Of a stretch of 36,047 bases of DNA, positions 1,366 through 8,194 are shown piece by piece. Where the stretch lies: assembly GCA_023150875.1 (NCBI GenBank), contig JAKLKC010000063.1:1-36047 (forward strand). The letters run 5' to 3'. Numbering within the stretch: position 1 is the first letter of the stretch; each line of letters starts with the position of its first letter. The notes under the pieces were generated by a model. That model saw nothing but the letters and a program-made list of their open reading frames with translations, ran no database searches and was not told where the DNA came from. The position numbers and the translations under genes are program-made. Origin of the DNA: Myxococcota bacterium. Its GTDB lineage: Bacteria > Myxococcota_A > UBA796 > UBA9615 > JAKLKC01.

Positions 1366-2232
1366 ATGAGCGGCCGGGGGATCCGGGCCTCGCTGGCCTG
1401 CACGGCGATACTGCTGGCGGCCTGCCTCGACCGGCCGCCGGACACGAGCGGACAGGACGACGACGACGACGAGACGGTCGACGACGACACCGCCGACGAC
1501 GACACCACGCCGGACGACGACACCGGCCTCACCTTCCGGGGCGTCGTGCGCTCCCTGCCCGGGGGAGATCCCTTTGGGGACCCGTCGGCGACCCTCTTCG
1601 TCACCGTCGCCGACCCCACGCCCCTGCTCACCGGGAGCATTCCCGAGGTCCTGGCGGTGGCGGACGTGGACGGCGGGACCGGGGCCTTCGAGGTGCCGAA
1701 CGTCCCCACCGAGGGGATGTCTCTCGGCCTCGCCCTCATGGTGGACGACCTGGGGGTGGACTACCACACCACGGGCATCATCCTGTCCCCCAGCGTGTGG
1801 AGCGGCGCCGGCGACGGATCGGTGATCGACGTGGACGCCTACGTGCTCTCGGCCGCCGCCGCGGGCGACGTGGAGGCGGGCCTGGACGCCGCCGGGTGGA
1901 CGGGCGCCTCGCTGGCCTGGGCGGGGGCGGTGATGGGCTTCGTCCGGGACGCGGACGGGCTCCCCCTGGCGGGGGCGACCGTCACTCCCCCGGGGAGCGC
2001 CGCCGTCTATTACGCCGACGGCGACCTGTTCACCGCGTCGCCGGACCTGGGCTTCGTCGGATCCGGCGGGAGCGCCGCCAACGCCGCCACCACCCAGGGC
2101 GGGAGGGCGGTCTTCGTGGTGCCGTCCGCCCCCATCGGGTTCTACGCGGCGGACGGCCCCGGAGTCTCCTTTCCCAACCTGACCGGCGGGACCCTCCCCG
2201 GCATGTTCTTCGTGACGGTGTTCGAGCCCTGA
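1366..2232 (+). CDS. Asp-spacer lipoprotein with carboxypeptidase-regulatory-like domain, 288 aa
   Basis: The N-terminus is a type II signal peptide with lipobox LLAAC (Cys20). Residues 31-54 form an acidic spacer of Asp runs separated by Thr/Ala/Pro. The remainder is predicted beta-rich. Residues about 191-207 (GFVRDADGLPLAGATVT) match the carboxypeptidase regulatory-like fold, in which a G-x-V-x-D-x-x-G-x-P-L-x-G-A-x-V strand pair is the hallmark. An earlier stretch (GVVRSLPGGDPFG) may be a second, weaker copy. Such domains usually serve in surface adhesion or as spacers, not catalysis. The start is preceded only by GTGAGGG, so its ribosome site is weak. The gene converges on the FG-GAP gene ending at 2572. 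Confidence 0.8.
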   Translation: MSGRGIRASLACTAILLAACLDRPPDTSGQDDDDDETVDDDTADDDTTPDDDTGLTFRGVVRSLPGGDPFGDPSATLFVTVADPTPLLTGSIPEVLAVADVDGGTGAFEVPNVPTEGMSLGLALMVDDLGVDYHTTGIILSPSVWSGAGDGSVIDVDAYVLSAAAAGDVEAGLDAAGWTGASLAWAGAVMGFVRDADGLPLAGATVTPPGSAAVYYADGDLFTASPDLGFVGSGGSAANAATTQGGRAVFVVPSAPIGFYAADGPGVSFPNLTGGTLPGMFFVTVFEP

Positions 2233-2371
2233 GGGCGACCGTCGAAGGCGGACGGCAGGGCCGGAGATGGGTCGCCCCCACCTCCGCCGACGCGGCGGGT
2301 GCCCGCCCCCCCGGACCGAGGAGGGGCGGATGTGTCACCCTTCCCGATGCCCTGCGCCCGCTCCTAACCAT

Positions 2372-2567
2372 CCTCAGGCAATCCACCGAACGTTCCTTGC
2401 GTGCCCGAGCCCGAGCCCGTGCCCGATCCGTGGTGGACAACGGCACCGTGACCGGACGTCCCCGCCGGGCACGGACGCGGGCACCGGCCTTCGGCCTGGG
2501 CTCGGGCACGAGGGAACGCGGTACGGATCCGCTCCGAGTCCGTTCCCGTCCAGCTCATAGCCTGAGG
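2372..2567. repeat. Nested inverted-repeat element between convergent genes
   Basis: The outer arms are CCTCAGGC (2372-2379) and its reverse complement (2560-2567). The inner arms are 2391-2412 and about 2497-2518, which share CGTTCC and GTGCCCGAGCCC in inverted order. The innermost arms are GTGCCCG around 2419-2425 and CGGGCAC at 2466-2472. The left inner arm also contains about four tandem copies of a GCCCG(A/T) hexamer. The element fills most of the 339-bp gap between a plus-strand gene ending at 2232 and a minus-strand gene ending at 2572. No coding frame here is credible. It may be a bidirectional terminator, a structured RNA or a small repeat family. Confidence 0.6.
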
Positions 2568-2571
2568 CGAG

Positions 2572-4755
2572 TTACTCCCCGCCCGGGGCCGGCACCGAGA
2601 ACACCCACGTCTCCGACTGGACCGGTCCCTCGGCCGCTCCGGCGGTCACCCTCCAGTACCCTCCCCCATCGACGAAGCGGTTGTCCAGCGCGTTCCACAG
2701 GGTCGCGTTCACGCCGTAGTGCCCATCGCTCGACGAGCCGAAGTAGAAGGTCGACTCCACCCGGAAGTCCGGCGACGACGACAGCTCCAGGTAGGCCCCG
2801 GTGCAGTCCGTGTTCCAGAGGAACGTCGGGGGCGCGTCGATGACCGACCCGTCCGCCGGACCCTCCAGGTTCACCAGGCATCCCTCGACCGGATCGGGCG
2901 CGGGGGGCTTCGGCACCAGGGTGGTGAAGAACGACCTCGCCTCGGTGGCCGCCGTGAAGGCGCCCGCGCCCCCTACGACCCTCCAGTAACCGGCCTCGGT
3001 GAACCGGCGGCCGATGGAGGACCAGATCGTCCCGGAGGGGACCATGGCGTTGTCCCCGCCCACGTCGGCGAAGCCACCGAACACGTAGAGGTTGTCGGCG
3101 GGGAAGGTGGGGTCGTCGCTGATCTCCAACCGGTAGCCGGCACAGTCCCCGGACCACACGAAGGCCCCGCCGCCGGTCAGGTCCGCCCCCTCGGCCGGGC
3201 TCACCGGAGCCACCGAACACTCGGCGCCCGCCGGAGCCCCCCGATAGAGGAACGCCCCGCCCTCGTAGGTCACCGCGCCCGTGTAGCTGTCGGACCCCAC
3301 GATCAGGTCCCCGTATCCGTCACCGTCGACGTCCCCCGCCGCCGCCACCGACTGCCCGAACTTCGCCCACACCTGCCATCCCTCCTGCACCCAGTCGGCC
3401 TCCCCCGCCAACCCGTCGGCGGAGCCCAGGAACACCTGGGCGCGGCCCTCGTCGTGGTCGCCGACGTCGAAGTACAGCGCGCCGACCACCACGTCGTCGT
3501 ACCCGTCGCCGTTCACGTCCCCCGCCGACGCCACCGACTCCCCGAGGCCGGCCCCGTCCTGGGCCTCCCCCGCCGTCCACGCCGGAGTGGTCCAAAGCCC
3601 CGAGGCCGAACCCAGGTAGACGTCGGCCCGGCCCCCCTCGAAGTCCCCGCCCGAGAACCCGGAGGAGCCCACCACCACGTCGTCGTACCCGTCTCCGTTC
3701 ACGTCCCCCGCCGACGATACCGAGTACCCAGCGTTCGCGTACTCGGACTCCCCCACCTTGGTCCACGCCGGAGACGCGGCGAGGCCGGTGGCGGACCCGA
3801 GGTACACGTAGACCTTCCCCTGGTCGTCGTAAGGGTAGTAGGGCGCCCCCACAATCACGTCCCCGTACCCGTCCCCGTTCACGTCCCCGGCGGACGCCAC
3901 CGAGTATCCGAAGTTGGCACCAGTCTGGTTCGCCTCCGCGGTCCACGCCGGGGAGGTGGACAGCCCGCTCGCGGACCCCAGGTACAGGTAGGCCAGACCC
4001 TCGCTGCTCTGACCGTTGGAGCGGAACGGCGAGCCCACCACCACGTCGTCGTAGCCGTCGCCGTTCACGTCCCCCGCCGACGCCGCGGACCAGCCGAACT
4101 GGGCGTAGCTCGCCCCGCCGTCCGCCGTCCACGCCGGGCTCGGGTCCAGGCCCGCGGACGAACCGTGATACACGTAGGCCCTTCCACCGTCCGTGAAGGC
4201 GTAGTCGGCCTTGGGGCCCCCCACCACCACGTCGTCGTAGCCGTCGCCGTTCACGTCCCCCGCCGTGGCCACCGACCAGCCGAAGTACGCGCCGCCGGAT
4301 CCGGAGGTGTCCGACCAGTCCGCCGTCTCGGACGGCCCGGCCTCGGAGCCGTGAAAGACCGACGCCAGCCCGTCTTCGCTGGATCCGTCGTCGTAGAACG
4401 GGGAACCGACGATCACGTCCGCGAGTCCGTCCCCGTTCACGTCCCCGGCGGACGCCACCGAAAAGCCCGTGAAAGCCGACGCCTGCCCCCCGGTCACCGC
4501 CCAGGCCGCCGGGGTCAGCAGGGGCCCCGCGTCCCGAGCCTCCCGCGCCCCCATGCCCGGGGCGGCCCGCACCGGGCGTCCCGCCTCCCCATCGGGGGGG
4601 GCCTGGTGCTCCACCGACGCCCCGGCCCGGAGCCCGTCGGCCTCTGGGGACCAGCCCGCCGCGCCGCACCCGGTGGCAAGGAGCAGCGCCACCGCGCCGC
4701 CGCCCGAGACCCACCCCTCCATCCTCGCACCCAGGAAGACCCGACGTCCGCCCAT
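2572..4755 (-). CDS. FG-GAP seven-bladed propeller lipoprotein with two Cys-containing C-terminal domains, 727 aa
   Basis: From the ATG at 4755 a signal peptide with lipobox LATGC (Cys30) follows. An alternative start at 4722 would give Cys19. Seven FG-GAP repeats follow, each carrying the motif A-G-D-V-N-G-D-G-Y-x-D-V-V-V-G, whose Asp/Asn residues form a calcium-binding DxDGDG-type loop as in integrin alpha propellers. The repeat anchors lie 186 bp apart (one interval is 180), so each blade is about 62 residues. Two copies of an approximately 100-residue domain end the protein: P-A-[ED]-G, then W-[SN]-x-D-C-x-G-Y/A, LE[IL]S, W and YWRV. The gene is paralogous to its upstream neighbour (4982-8194) but its blades are more diverged. 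A surface, probably adhesive role is inferred. Confidence 0.88.
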   Translation of the reverse strand: MGGRRVFLGARMEGWVSGGGAVALLLATGCGAAGWSPEADGLRAGASVEHQAPPDGEAGRPVRAAPGMGAREARDAGPLLTPAAWAVTGGQASAFTGFSVASAGDVNGDGLADVIVGSPFYDDGSSEDGLASVFHGSEAGPSETADWSDTSGSGGAYFGWSVATAGDVNGDGYDDVVVGGPKADYAFTDGGRAYVYHGSSAGLDPSPAWTADGGASYAQFGWSAASAGDVNGDGYDDVVVGSPFRSNGQSSEGLAYLYLGSASGLSTSPAWTAEANQTGANFGYSVASAGDVNGDGYGDVIVGAPYYPYDDQGKVYVYLGSATGLAASPAWTKVGESEYANAGYSVSSAGDVNGDGYDDVVVGSSGFSGGDFEGGRADVYLGSASGLWTTPAWTAGEAQDGAGLGESVASAGDVNGDGYDDVVVGALYFDVGDHDEGRAQVFLGSADGLAGEADWVQEGWQVWAKFGQSVAAAGDVDGDGYGDLIVGSDSYTGAVTYEGGAFLYRGAPAGAECSVAPVSPAEGADLTGGGAFVWSGDCAGYRLEISDDPTFPADNLYVFGGFADVGGDNAMVPSGTIWSSIGRRFTEAGYWRVVGGAGAFTAATEARSFFTTLVPKPPAPDPVEGCLVNLEGPADGSVIDAPPTFLWNTDCTGAYLELSSSPDFRVESTFYFGSSSDGHYGVNATLWNALDNRFVDGGGYWRVTAGAAEGPVQSETWVFSVPAPGGE

Positions 4756-4981
4756 CGCCACAGGACCTTTCTCCGCCGCGCGGCCCGACCAAAAAGGACC
4801 GGTCCCGCCCGGGGGAATCGGAAATAGCCGATCCCCGGGAGGTGGATCAAGGGAATTCGACATGACGTGCCCGCTGCGGCGGACCAAGCCCGCTTCGACC
4901 CCGCATCGGGCGTGTGACGCCGGCCGTGTCGACCTCGATCCGCCGCGACCTTCCGTGGCCGGCGTCGATCTCCGCAAGGAC

Positions 4982-7900
4982 TCAGGGCACGCTGAAGGAG
5001 CGGACCCCGGACGTCACGTCCCCCTCCGCCGCGCCCGCCGTCACCCGCCAGTAGCCCGCCGAGCCGACGAAGTGCCCGTCCAAGGCGTTCCAAATCGTGC
5101 TGCTCATGGTGTAGTGTCCGCCGGAGACCGCCCCGAAGTAGTAGGTGGACTCCAAGGCGAAGTCCGGGTCGGACGAGACCTCCAGGTAGGCCCCGGTGCA
5201 GTCGGTCGTCCAAACGAAGGTCGGGGGGGAGAGGATCGTCGCGCCATCGGCGGGGCTGCCCTGGGAGACCGTGCACCCGGGCACCGGGGCGGGAGGGGTC
5301 GGGAGCGGGTAGTGGGTCGTGTAGAAGGACCGGGGCGCCGACGCGACGGTCAGGCCGTCCAGGCCGCCCACCACCCGCCAGAAGCCCTCCACCGTGAACG
5401 CCCGCCCGATGGCGGACCAGAGGGAGGCGCTGGGGGAGAAGGAGTTGTCGGCCAGGTCGTCGGCGAAGTTGCCGAAGACGTACACCTCGTTGGCGGGGAA
5501 CCCGTCGTAGGGGCTGATCTCCACCCGGTAGCCGTCGCAGTCCCCCGACCAGATGAAGGTCGGCCCCGCGGTCAGGTCGGCGCCGTCGGCGGGGCCGATG
5601 GGCGAGATGGAGCAATCCGCCCCGCAGCCGTCGTCCGCGGTGCCGTCGCAGTCCTGGTCCACGGCGTCCCCGCACACTTCCACGGCCCCCGGGAAGGAGG
5701 CGGGATCGGCGTCGTCGCAGTCCCCGGACCACACGGACCAGCCGTCCCCGTCCTCGTCCGCCGATCCCGTGAGGACGTGGGTGCCCCCGGCCTCCCCGTA
5801 TACGCCGCCCCACAGCCAGCGGGACCACCCCTGGGGGGAGGCGGTGGACGGATCCTCCAGCAGGCGGGCCCGCCAGTGGTAGGACTCCGTGTCGTCCAGG
5901 CCCCCCACCGTCACCTGCAGTTCGGTCCCCCCGACCCCGGTGTCGGTGAAAGCGCTGCCCTCCACGAACCCCGTCCCGTCGAAGGGGATCCCCAGGGGCT
6001 TCGCCTCCACCTGGAGCTTCACCCGGCCCCTGCCGATGCCGCTGCGGCCCGTCGCCGCGACGTCGAAGGCCCCGTCGGTCCCCGAGAAGCCGCCGGTCAC
6101 CACGGGAGTGGTCTCGCCCACCCGCCGCGCCTGGGGGACCAGCGAGGTGCCCGGACCCACGCCGTCCCCACCGTTGCCGAGGTACAGGGACGCCGCGCCC
6201 TCGTCGATCTCCCCATTGTCGTATCGGTACGCACCCACCACGACGTCCGCGTATCCGTCCCCGTTCACGTCCCCCGCCGATGACACGGAGTAGCCGAACG
6301 ACGTGCTCTCCTGGTCGGACTCCGCCGTCCACGACGCCGAGGCCGACAGCCCCGAAGACGAACCCAGGTACAGGAACGCCCCGCCCTCGTCCGTCTCCCC
6401 TTGATCGTGGGCGTACGCTCCCACCACCACGTCCCCGTACCCGTCCCCGTTCACGTCCCCCGCGGACGACACCGAGGTCCCGAAGTACGCGTTCGCCTGG
6501 TCGGACTCCGCCGTCCACGACGCCGACGCCGACAGCCCCGAGGGCGAACCCAGGTACAGGAACGCGGCACCCTCGAACGACTCCCCATCGCTGTAGGCGG
6601 ACGCACCCACCACCACGTCCGCGTAGCCGTCCCCGTTCACGTCCCCCGCCGAAGACACCGAGTAGCCGAAGTACCCGGTCGCCTGGTCGGACTCCGCCGT
6701 CCACGACGCCGAGGCCGACAGCCCCATGGGCGAGCCCAGGTACAGGAACGCCGCGCCCTCGTTCGTCTCCCCGTTGTCGTAGTCCCGCGCCCCCACCACC
6801 ACGTCCCCGTATCCATCCCCGTTCACGTCCCCCGCCGAAGACACCGACCTCCCGAAGGAAGCGCTCGCCTGGTCGGACTCCGCCGTCCACGACGCCGAGG
6901 CCGACAGCCCCGAGGACGAGCCCAGGTACAGGAACGCCGCGCCCTCGTTCGTCTCCCCGTTGTCGTAGTCGTACGCGCCCACCACCACGTCCGCGTAACC
7001 GTCCCCGTTCACGTCACCCGCCGACGATACCGAGGAGCCGAAGCGCGCGGACGCCTGGTCGGGCTCCGCCGTCCACGACGCCGACGCCGACAGCCCCGAG
7101 GGCGAGCCCAGGTACACGAACGCGGCGCCCTCGCTCGCCTCCCCATTGGAGTAGCCGAGCGCACCCACCACCACGTCCGCGTAACCGTCCCCGTTCACGT
7201 CCCCCGCCGAAGACACCGAGGTCCCGAACAACGCGCTCGCCTGGTCGGACTCCGCCGTCCAAGACGCCGACGCCGACAGCCCCGAAGACGAACCCAGGTA
7301 CAGGAACGCCGCGCCCTCGTAGGACTCCCCGCCGTCGTAATAGGGCGCGCCCACCACCACGTCCCCGTACCCGTCCCCGTTCACGTCCCCCGCCGACGAC
7401 ACCGAGAAGCCGAAGCGCGCGGAAGCCTGGTCGGACGCCGCCGTCCACGCCACCGCCGAAAGCAACGGGTCCACCGTCACCGGGTACACCGCCCCCGCGG
7501 TCTCCACCCGCAGCCGTACGCCCCCGGCCGTCCCTTCCATCCGCGACGCCAGGTCGCGCCCCGTCGCGTCCCACGCCCGCAGCCCCGAGTATCGCAAGTC
7601 CGTCCCGCCGGGGACCTCCAGCCGCGCGGCGGTCCCGGATCCCTCCACCCGGGCCACCGCCCCCGTCACCCCCACCTCCAGGACCACCGTCCCCGAGCCG
7701 TCGGGCGGCGCCACCACCACGAAGCCGTGCTCCAGGCCCCGGATGCCGTTCTCCCACCACTCCGTCACCCCGTCCCGGGCCACCTCGACCCGCCGCAGGC
7801 ACTCCCCCCGCGCGTCCACCTCCCCGTCCGACCGGCACTCCCCCAGCTCCGGCGCCGAGCCCCGGGCCTCCCGCACGCCCCCGTCTCCACCCCAGGCCAC

Positions 7901-8194
7901 CAGGCCCACGGTCACCGGCTCCCCGCCGTCCCCCTGGCCGGCCCGCACCCGCGCGCCCTCGGCGGCCACCTCGCCCGCGAGCCCCTGGGCCCGGTTCCGG
8001 AAGCGGTACGCCCGCTCCCCCTGCGCCGCGAACGCATAGGAGCCCGCGGCGATCCGACGCTGGACCACCTGCTGCCACGACGCCGACGCCGGTGCCCCGT
8101 CCTCAGCGGGCGCGCCGGCGGGCGGCGAGGGATCCCCGCACCCAGCCACCGCGCACACCACCGCCCACAGCGCCCACACCCGCAGGTCCCGCAT
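4982..8194 (-). CDS. Large FG-GAP propeller lipoprotein with MopE-type metal-binding motif, 1070 aa
   Basis: The start at 8194 has GGAGG 6 nt upstream. Lipobox VAGC gives Cys19. Residues about 30-240 form an N-terminal module ending in YPVTVDPLLS, common ahead of FG-GAP propellers in these bacteria. Seven nearly identical FG-GAP blades follow at about 248-675. Next come a Fn3-like region containing YHWRARL, then a MopE-type motif at about 811-858 (DEDGDGW, GDCDDADP, PGAVEVCGD, DQDCDG), a presumed calcium or copper site. Two C-terminal domains of the same type as in the 2572-4755 protein complete it. The two genes are tandem paralogues separated by about 226 bp. The role is probably surface display or adhesion; the metal preference cannot be read from sequence. 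Confidence 0.9.
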   Translation of the reverse strand: MRDLRVWALWAVVCAVAGCGDPSPPAGAPAEDGAPASASWQQVVQRRIAAGSYAFAAQGERAYRFRNRAQGLAGEVAAEGARVRAGQGDGGEPVTVGLVAWGGDGGVREARGSAPELGECRSDGEVDARGECLRRVEVARDGVTEWWENGIRGLEHGFVVVAPPDGSGTVVLEVGVTGAVARVEGSGTAARLEVPGGTDLRYSGLRAWDATGRDLASRMEGTAGGVRLRVETAGAVYPVTVDPLLSAVAWTAASDQASARFGFSVSSAGDVNGDGYGDVVVGAPYYDGGESYEGAAFLYLGSSSGLSASASWTAESDQASALFGTSVSSAGDVNGDGYADVVVGALGYSNGEASEGAAFVYLGSPSGLSASASWTAEPDQASARFGSSVSSAGDVNGDGYADVVVGAYDYDNGETNEGAAFLYLGSSSGLSASASWTAESDQASASFGRSVSSAGDVNGDGYGDVVVGARDYDNGETNEGAAFLYLGSPMGLSASASWTAESDQATGYFGYSVSSAGDVNGDGYADVVVGASAYSDGESFEGAAFLYLGSPSGLSASASWTAESDQANAYFGTSVSSAGDVNGDGYGDVVVGAYAHDQGETDEGGAFLYLGSSSGLSASASWTAESDQESTSFGYSVSSAGDVNGDGYADVVVGAYRYDNGEIDEGAASLYLGNGGDGVGPGTSLVPQARRVGETTPVVTGGFSGTDGAFDVAATGRSGIGRGRVKLQVEAKPLGIPFDGTGFVEGSAFTDTGVGGTELQVTVGGLDDTESYHWRARLLEDPSTASPQGWSRWLWGGVYGEAGGTHVLTGSADEDGDGWSVWSGDCDDADPASFPGAVEVCGDAVDQDCDGTADDGCGADCSISPIGPADGADLTAGPTFIWSGDCDGYRVEISPYDGFPANEVYVFGNFADDLADNSFSPSASLWSAIGRAFTVEGFWRVVGGLDGLTVASAPRSFYTTHYPLPTPPAPVPGCTVSQGSPADGATILSPPTFVWTTDCTGAYLEVSSDPDFALESTYYFGAVSGGHYTMSSTIWNALDGHFVGSAGYWRVTAGAAEGDVTSGVRSFSVP
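6170..7450 (-). repeat. Seven in-frame 186-bp tandem repeats encoding FG-GAP blades
   Basis: The conserved string GTTCACGTC, the complement of the DVN codons, begins at 6263, 6449, 6635, 6821, 7007, 7193 and 7379. Every interval is exactly 186 bp (62 codons), with no insertion or deletion. Neighbouring units are also highly similar at the DNA level, including the GLSASASWTAESDQ stretch. This suggests recent amplification or ongoing homogenisation, unlike the more diverged blades of the downstream paralogue. Confidence 0.9.

Follow-up and report, generated by a model that had tools for sequence, protein, structure and literature searches.

Positions 2372-2567 of the window (the whole 36,047-nucleotide stretch of DNA analysed here) hold nested inverted repeats at the junction of two converging genes, and raise the question of what kind of element they form: a sequence-only reading had proposed a small non-autonomous mobile element or a structured RNA. 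Comparison with the rest of the genome indicates that it is very probably a MITE, a miniature inverted-repeat transposable element, and the evidence is set out below together with the competing explanations.

The window copy

The three pairs of arms described in that reading are all present: an outer pair (2372-2379 with 2560-2567, CCTCAGGC/GCCTGAGG), a middle pair (GTTCC at 2392-2396 with GGAAC at 2513-2517) and an inner pair (2400-2417 with 2493-2510) with a complementarity of 89%. The hexamers of the left arm and the convergent arrangement of the flanking genes are likewise as it described them (Table 1). The extent of 196 bp has to be corrected, since alignment of the copies places the ends of the true unit 7 bp further out on each side. 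This plus-strand unit runs from TAACCATCCTCAGGC to GCCTGAGGCGAGTTA; its terminal inverted repeats are 15 bp long and start with TAACC, and it is devoid of any protein of its own. Inverted-repeat analysis of the 36-kb window reports 24 pairs at the settings used, 2372-2567 among them, so that the arms alone are unremarkable; what is remarkable is the presence of copies elsewhere. No tRNA or tmRNA was found. On the minus strand, positions 2572-8068 comprise two long FG-GAP-type repeat genes side by side, the first assigned by a Pfam match and the second by its similar repeats.

Table 1. Features of the window copy of the probable MITE and of the genes around it
Feature	Position	Strand	Details
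Whole copy	2365..2574		210 bp, counting one TA per side; similarity boundary among copies
Body without the TAs	2367..2572		
Left terminal inverted repeat, TAACCATCCTCAGGC	2365..2379	+	12 of 15 positions match the right end; other copies have the same end
Right terminal inverted repeat, TAACTCGCCTCAGGC on the minus strand	2560..2574	-	End comparison across copies
Left TA, presumed half of the target duplication	2365..2366	+	Flank C-TA
Right TA, presumed half of the target duplication	2573..2574	+	Followed by C, giving the site CTAC, not CTAG
GCCCGW hexamer array	2403..2426	+	Four units (GCCCGA GCCCGA GCCCGT GCCCGA); unit number differs from copy to copy
Inverted counterpart of the hexamers and GGCCTTCGGCC hairpin	2466..2510	+	Most strongly conserved segment in the family
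TAA stop codon of the minus-strand FG-GAP gene	2572..2574	-	Provided by the right end of the element
Gene for a 288-aa acidic protein	1366..2232	+	Stop lies 132 bp before the element
FG-GAP repeat gene ending in the element	2572..4722	-	Open frame up to 4977

Dispersed copies and their target site

A search of the genome to which the window belongs (6.92 Mb in 180 contigs) returned 54 matches with 40 of 257 first-look candidates scored, and the resulting counts are therefore lower bounds. Thirty matches were fetched and the 24 weakest were dropped before counting; after merging one tandem pair and one composite place (L008 and L021 being dropped), the family occupies at least 28 distinct places, and the structure is thus not unique in its genome. 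When a divergent copy served as the query and 40 of 214 candidates were scored, 59 matches were obtained which, compared place by place, added no long copy. The longer matches are 81-95% identical to the window copy, and 12 full copies are 85-98% identical to one another (mean 92%). Copies elsewhere measure about 200-240 bp, and 305 bp where the hexamer array is long. If an end is counted as recognisable when it has at most seven mismatches to the 32-35-base end pattern, at least one terminal repeat is found at 21 of the 28 places, and both in 14 insertions. The seven places outside these 21 are L019, L022, L023, L025, L026, L027 and L028. Copies running out at contig ends (L017, L018, L020 and L030) are expected of a repeat that breaks assembly. 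Two kinds of reduced copy occur: L024 (G000:C104:32165-32271) is an internally deleted copy of 107 bp that keeps both ends and has neither hexamers nor hairpin core, while L019, L022, L023, L026 and L028 (at about position 1500) have no recognisable ends and a nearly unchanged hairpin core, above all the first three.

Beyond this genome the element is not conserved as far as the searches reach. Among the matches listed for 92 relatives, the closest of the same order and with eight candidates scored per genome, none covers the full-length element; these matches are short and mostly hexamer, the best reaching 77% identity over query positions 87-172 in G015. The exact 31-base end pattern gave no hit in a wider contig collection, in which the own genome and very near ones are possibly absent. 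Regarding gene order, the FabF-like neighbour of copy L014 matched one Chloroflexi MAG at 26% identity, which is useless for synteny. A literature search found no paper on this family, though we do not claim that none exists. The family looks new: it differs from published ones in its sequence, its GC-richness, its hexamer array and its host, and is of a kind already known. As a separate observation, GCCCGN runs also stand alone, with three runs of at least four units in 300 kb of the own genome; in relatives they occur in 25 of 29 matched loci, and in none of these is there an inverted partner up to 160 bp away.

The ends of the copies point to a preferred target. The end motif TAACCNNCCTCAGGC occurs among the listed sites 11 times with no mismatch and 21 times with one, and 28 of these 32 sites fall at copies matched in the own-genome search. 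With two mismatches allowed, 117 sites are found against 125 for a reversed-pattern control; being no commoner than the control, they were left out, and only sites with zero or one mismatch are informative. The target reconstructed from the 14 two-ended insertions is CTAG in eight, CTAA in three, and CTAC (the window copy), CTAT and GTAG in one each, whereas in a 300-kb sample of this genome 40 of 2271 TA sites are CTAG. Seven of the 14 insertions retain an intact TA at each border, and the other ends of these filled sites are one or two changes off. This CTAG/CTAA/NTAN pattern, read from filled sites alone, indicates that TA is most likely duplicated on insertion at CTAG. A preference for CTAG is also known for IS630 itself. 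A tandem pair on contig C147 (L128:4558-4976, G000:C147) is head-to-tail and 98% identical, with a single dinucleotide common to the adjoining borders; the borders read TA-TG-TA, the shared middle one now being TG, as expected if one copy entered the TA of another.

Dispersed near-identical copies, terminal inverted repeats, the TA/CTAG signature and the lack of a protein support the proposal of a small non-autonomous mobile element. In the mechanism that we propose, a transposase supplied in trans, probably of the IS630/Tc1-mariner type and not found in the assembly, would have bound the TAACC..CCTCAGGC ends and moved a body of roughly 206 bp, which would then have been joined to a TA, preferentially within CTAG, with duplication of the TA.

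Gene ends and the folded core

At 13 of the 21 places with a recognisable end (13 of 28 overall), the neighbouring gene has its in-frame stop codon in the outermost three bases of the element. Two of these places supply a stop to the genes on either side, so that 15 gene ends are concerned, and the terminal stops involved are TAA, TAG and TGA. This coincidence exceeds background (Fisher P 0.004; binomial P 1e-4): outside gene interiors, 8 of 36 background CTAG are stop codons. Stops in 300 kb of background comprise 175 TGA, 48 TAG and 7 TAA. At 18 of the 21 places a stop lies no more than 30 bp upstream of the element, this threshold having been chosen once the data had been seen. Where both neighbours were called, these are convergent at 13 of 23 places versus 40 of 225 background gene pairs (Fisher P 1e-4), the other places being eight tandem and two divergent; a home-made codon-score caller provided the gene calls for both the neighbourhood counts and the background. 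Ten proteins whose stop is supplied by the element were compared with Pfam and NCBIfam, some NCBIfam scores falling under the equivalog cut-offs. In five of the ten (RapA_C, BolA, CbbQ_C, FabF-type and DUF4282) the profile reaches within six positions of its own end, with 3-24 residues left to the stop, so that at least those genes are not visibly truncated; the other five are uninformative on the C-terminus.

The rarity of CTAG in this genome of 74% GC, and the fact that part of it sits on TAG stops (C TAG), suggest how a mobile element could come to supply gene ends. As the first base of the body is A, a TAG hit by insertion turns into TAA and the length of the gene is kept. Copies that block transcription or promoters would probably have disappeared, and those between the ends of convergent genes would be the survivors; there the large hairpin may serve as a passive 3' end structure. 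Target supply and the loss of expression-harming copies may together explain both the stop-codon and the convergent bias. A more specific version, in which the transposase favours CTAG at gene 3' ends beyond what supply and survival provide, and in which the ends have evolved to rebuild the stop of every gene entered, from either side, in a near-harmless convergent niche, seems to us unlikely. The family offers a countable example of how a CTAG target and an A-initial body can let a mobile element occupy stop codons with the genes undamaged. In GC-rich genomes with few CTAG sites, TA-target elements could be directed towards the ends of genes in this way. For annotation it is relevant that an element can encode the end of a gene in genomes of this type.

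Folding of the segment 2372-2567 (196 nt) reaches -113 kcal/mol, and either strand is more stable than its dinucleotide shuffles (z -6.28 and -4.13, none of 200 shuffles as good in each case), which removes one of the grounds on which the sequence-only reading could have been dismissed. Twelve copies likewise beat their shuffles on both strands, with z from -2.1 to -7.5 (60 shuffles each). A structured RNA, the second proposal of that reading, is nevertheless unsupported, since the two strands fold about equally well and covariation was not seen: of the 38 pairs in the consensus fold, one shows a two-sided change, and the covariation term is -0.33, in a test that has low power at 85-98% identity between copies. 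An Rfam scan of the window returned no match at the gathering threshold.

The same hairpin could be taken for a domesticated bidirectional transcription terminator, or an mRNA-stabilising 3' element, conserved for that function. Such a role would fit the convergent bias, the strong folding of each of the 12 copies on both strands, and above all the conservation of the hairpin core (0.983 versus 0.917-0.949 for the ends). The somewhat higher conservation of the core, and its persistence where no ends can be recognised, are the chief indication of a function. However, a simple scan for intrinsic terminators (a hairpin followed by a T run) found none in 2200-2700, covariation is not seen, and the element was not found in the relatives searched. 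Moreover, purifying selection would also produce such a location bias, an argument already made for pneumococcal repeats (PMC3049150). We therefore consider this role improbable as the explanation of the family, and retain the MITE.

Known systems and candidate movers

One known palindromic mobile element is YPAL of Yersinia (about 168 bp), which De Gregorio reportedly found in 2006 to insert close downstream of stop codons. It differs in being without TA ends and in making duplications of 3-26 bp (PMC2229807). A closer likeness is found in RUP, a small MITE of S. pneumoniae related to IS630-Spn1, with which the present element shares small size, the lack of a protein, TA ends, inverted ends and a convergent-gene bias, as described in PMC2229807 and PMC3049150; the latter finds pneumococcal repeats over-represented between convergent genes. 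RUP is 107 bp long and has its IS630 partner, whereas the present element is 210 bp long, GC-rich and equipped with a hexamer array, and has no partner found. The BOX repeat of Streptococcus pneumoniae also encodes gene stop codons, at the extreme 3' end of the gene in 36 cases and without strong evidence of truncation; it differs in its modular boxA/B/C build and unrelated sequence, and no CTAG/TA rule is described for it in the excerpts of PMC3049150. Correia/NEMIS and ERIC elements share TA ends, inverted ends and long RNA stem-loops, and differ in sequence, host and size, being described as mostly A+T-rich in PMC2229807, in contrast to the GC-rich element. Finally, ISY100 and the IS630/Tc1-mariner group insert almost only at TA and duplicate it (PMC2170065), and encode their own transposase, whereas none was found in the present genome for the families searched. 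Our verdict, by analogy, is that its closest counterparts in mode of action would be RUP and similar TA-target elements of the IS630/Tc1-mariner type. Membership in that group is not taken as proven, the ends matching no IS630-type element found.

The search for a mover in the own genome returned no profile match to PF13358 (DDE_3), PF13586 or PF13592 (HTH_33). The one PF01609 transposase, an IS4/IS5-like match on C178, was rejected as a partner on account of its different inverted repeat, CTCATAGGTAGG. With four Pfam families and the listed end motifs of zero or one mismatch taken together, no partner sharing the ends was detected. DDE_3 is present in 35 of the 92 relatives, including one of six in the same order, and 30 such loci yield three candidate TA-flanked end pairs, none of them like the ends of the element. 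The autonomous partner may be lost, unassembled or from a family beyond those searched. A missing autonomous partner is common for MITEs, for which none is required.

Two other enzymes of this genome were considered as movers. The palindromic nature of the element and two PF01797 (Y1_Tnp) matches above cut-off would fit a REPIN-type element moved by a RAYT, i.e. a Y1 transposase. However, the RAYT-like gene on C139 (L090, G000:C139:11082-14351) lies amid several repeats of its own of the GTAGGGCGGGGGCTTGTCCCC type, different by eye from the element, whose ends are TA-bordered inverted repeats rather than tagged single hairpins; we give this explanation almost no credence.

The second is an integron integrase, whose gene lies near a contig end (G000:C123:50782-51726; L126:8780-9880, minus strand) and scores 459 bits to TIGR02249 against a cut-off of 265, which none of 14 control genomes exceeds. 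It could have moved the element as an attC-like recombination site. Core sites of attC read RYYYAAC...GTTRRRY, and attC, too, is located immediately behind stop codons. The ends CTAAC...GTTAG resemble them, and the element is indeed a folded site starting at stop codons. However, only CTAAC/GTTAG is common to the ends, bases further out vary, and the paired spacing of attC differs from that of the element. Both ends of the element serve as gene ends, in either orientation, and several of the genes concerned are ordinary long chromosomal ones and not part of a cassette array. Moreover, BLAST places no copy near the integrase gene, the only element match on its contig being, among the matches scored, a 27-bp hexamer piece ~33 kb away. 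On placement, orientation and ends, the attC explanation is rejected as very improbable, and the MITE reading is kept. By eye, a degenerate site possibly resembling attC can be made out at the integrase locus itself, around L126:10316-10385.
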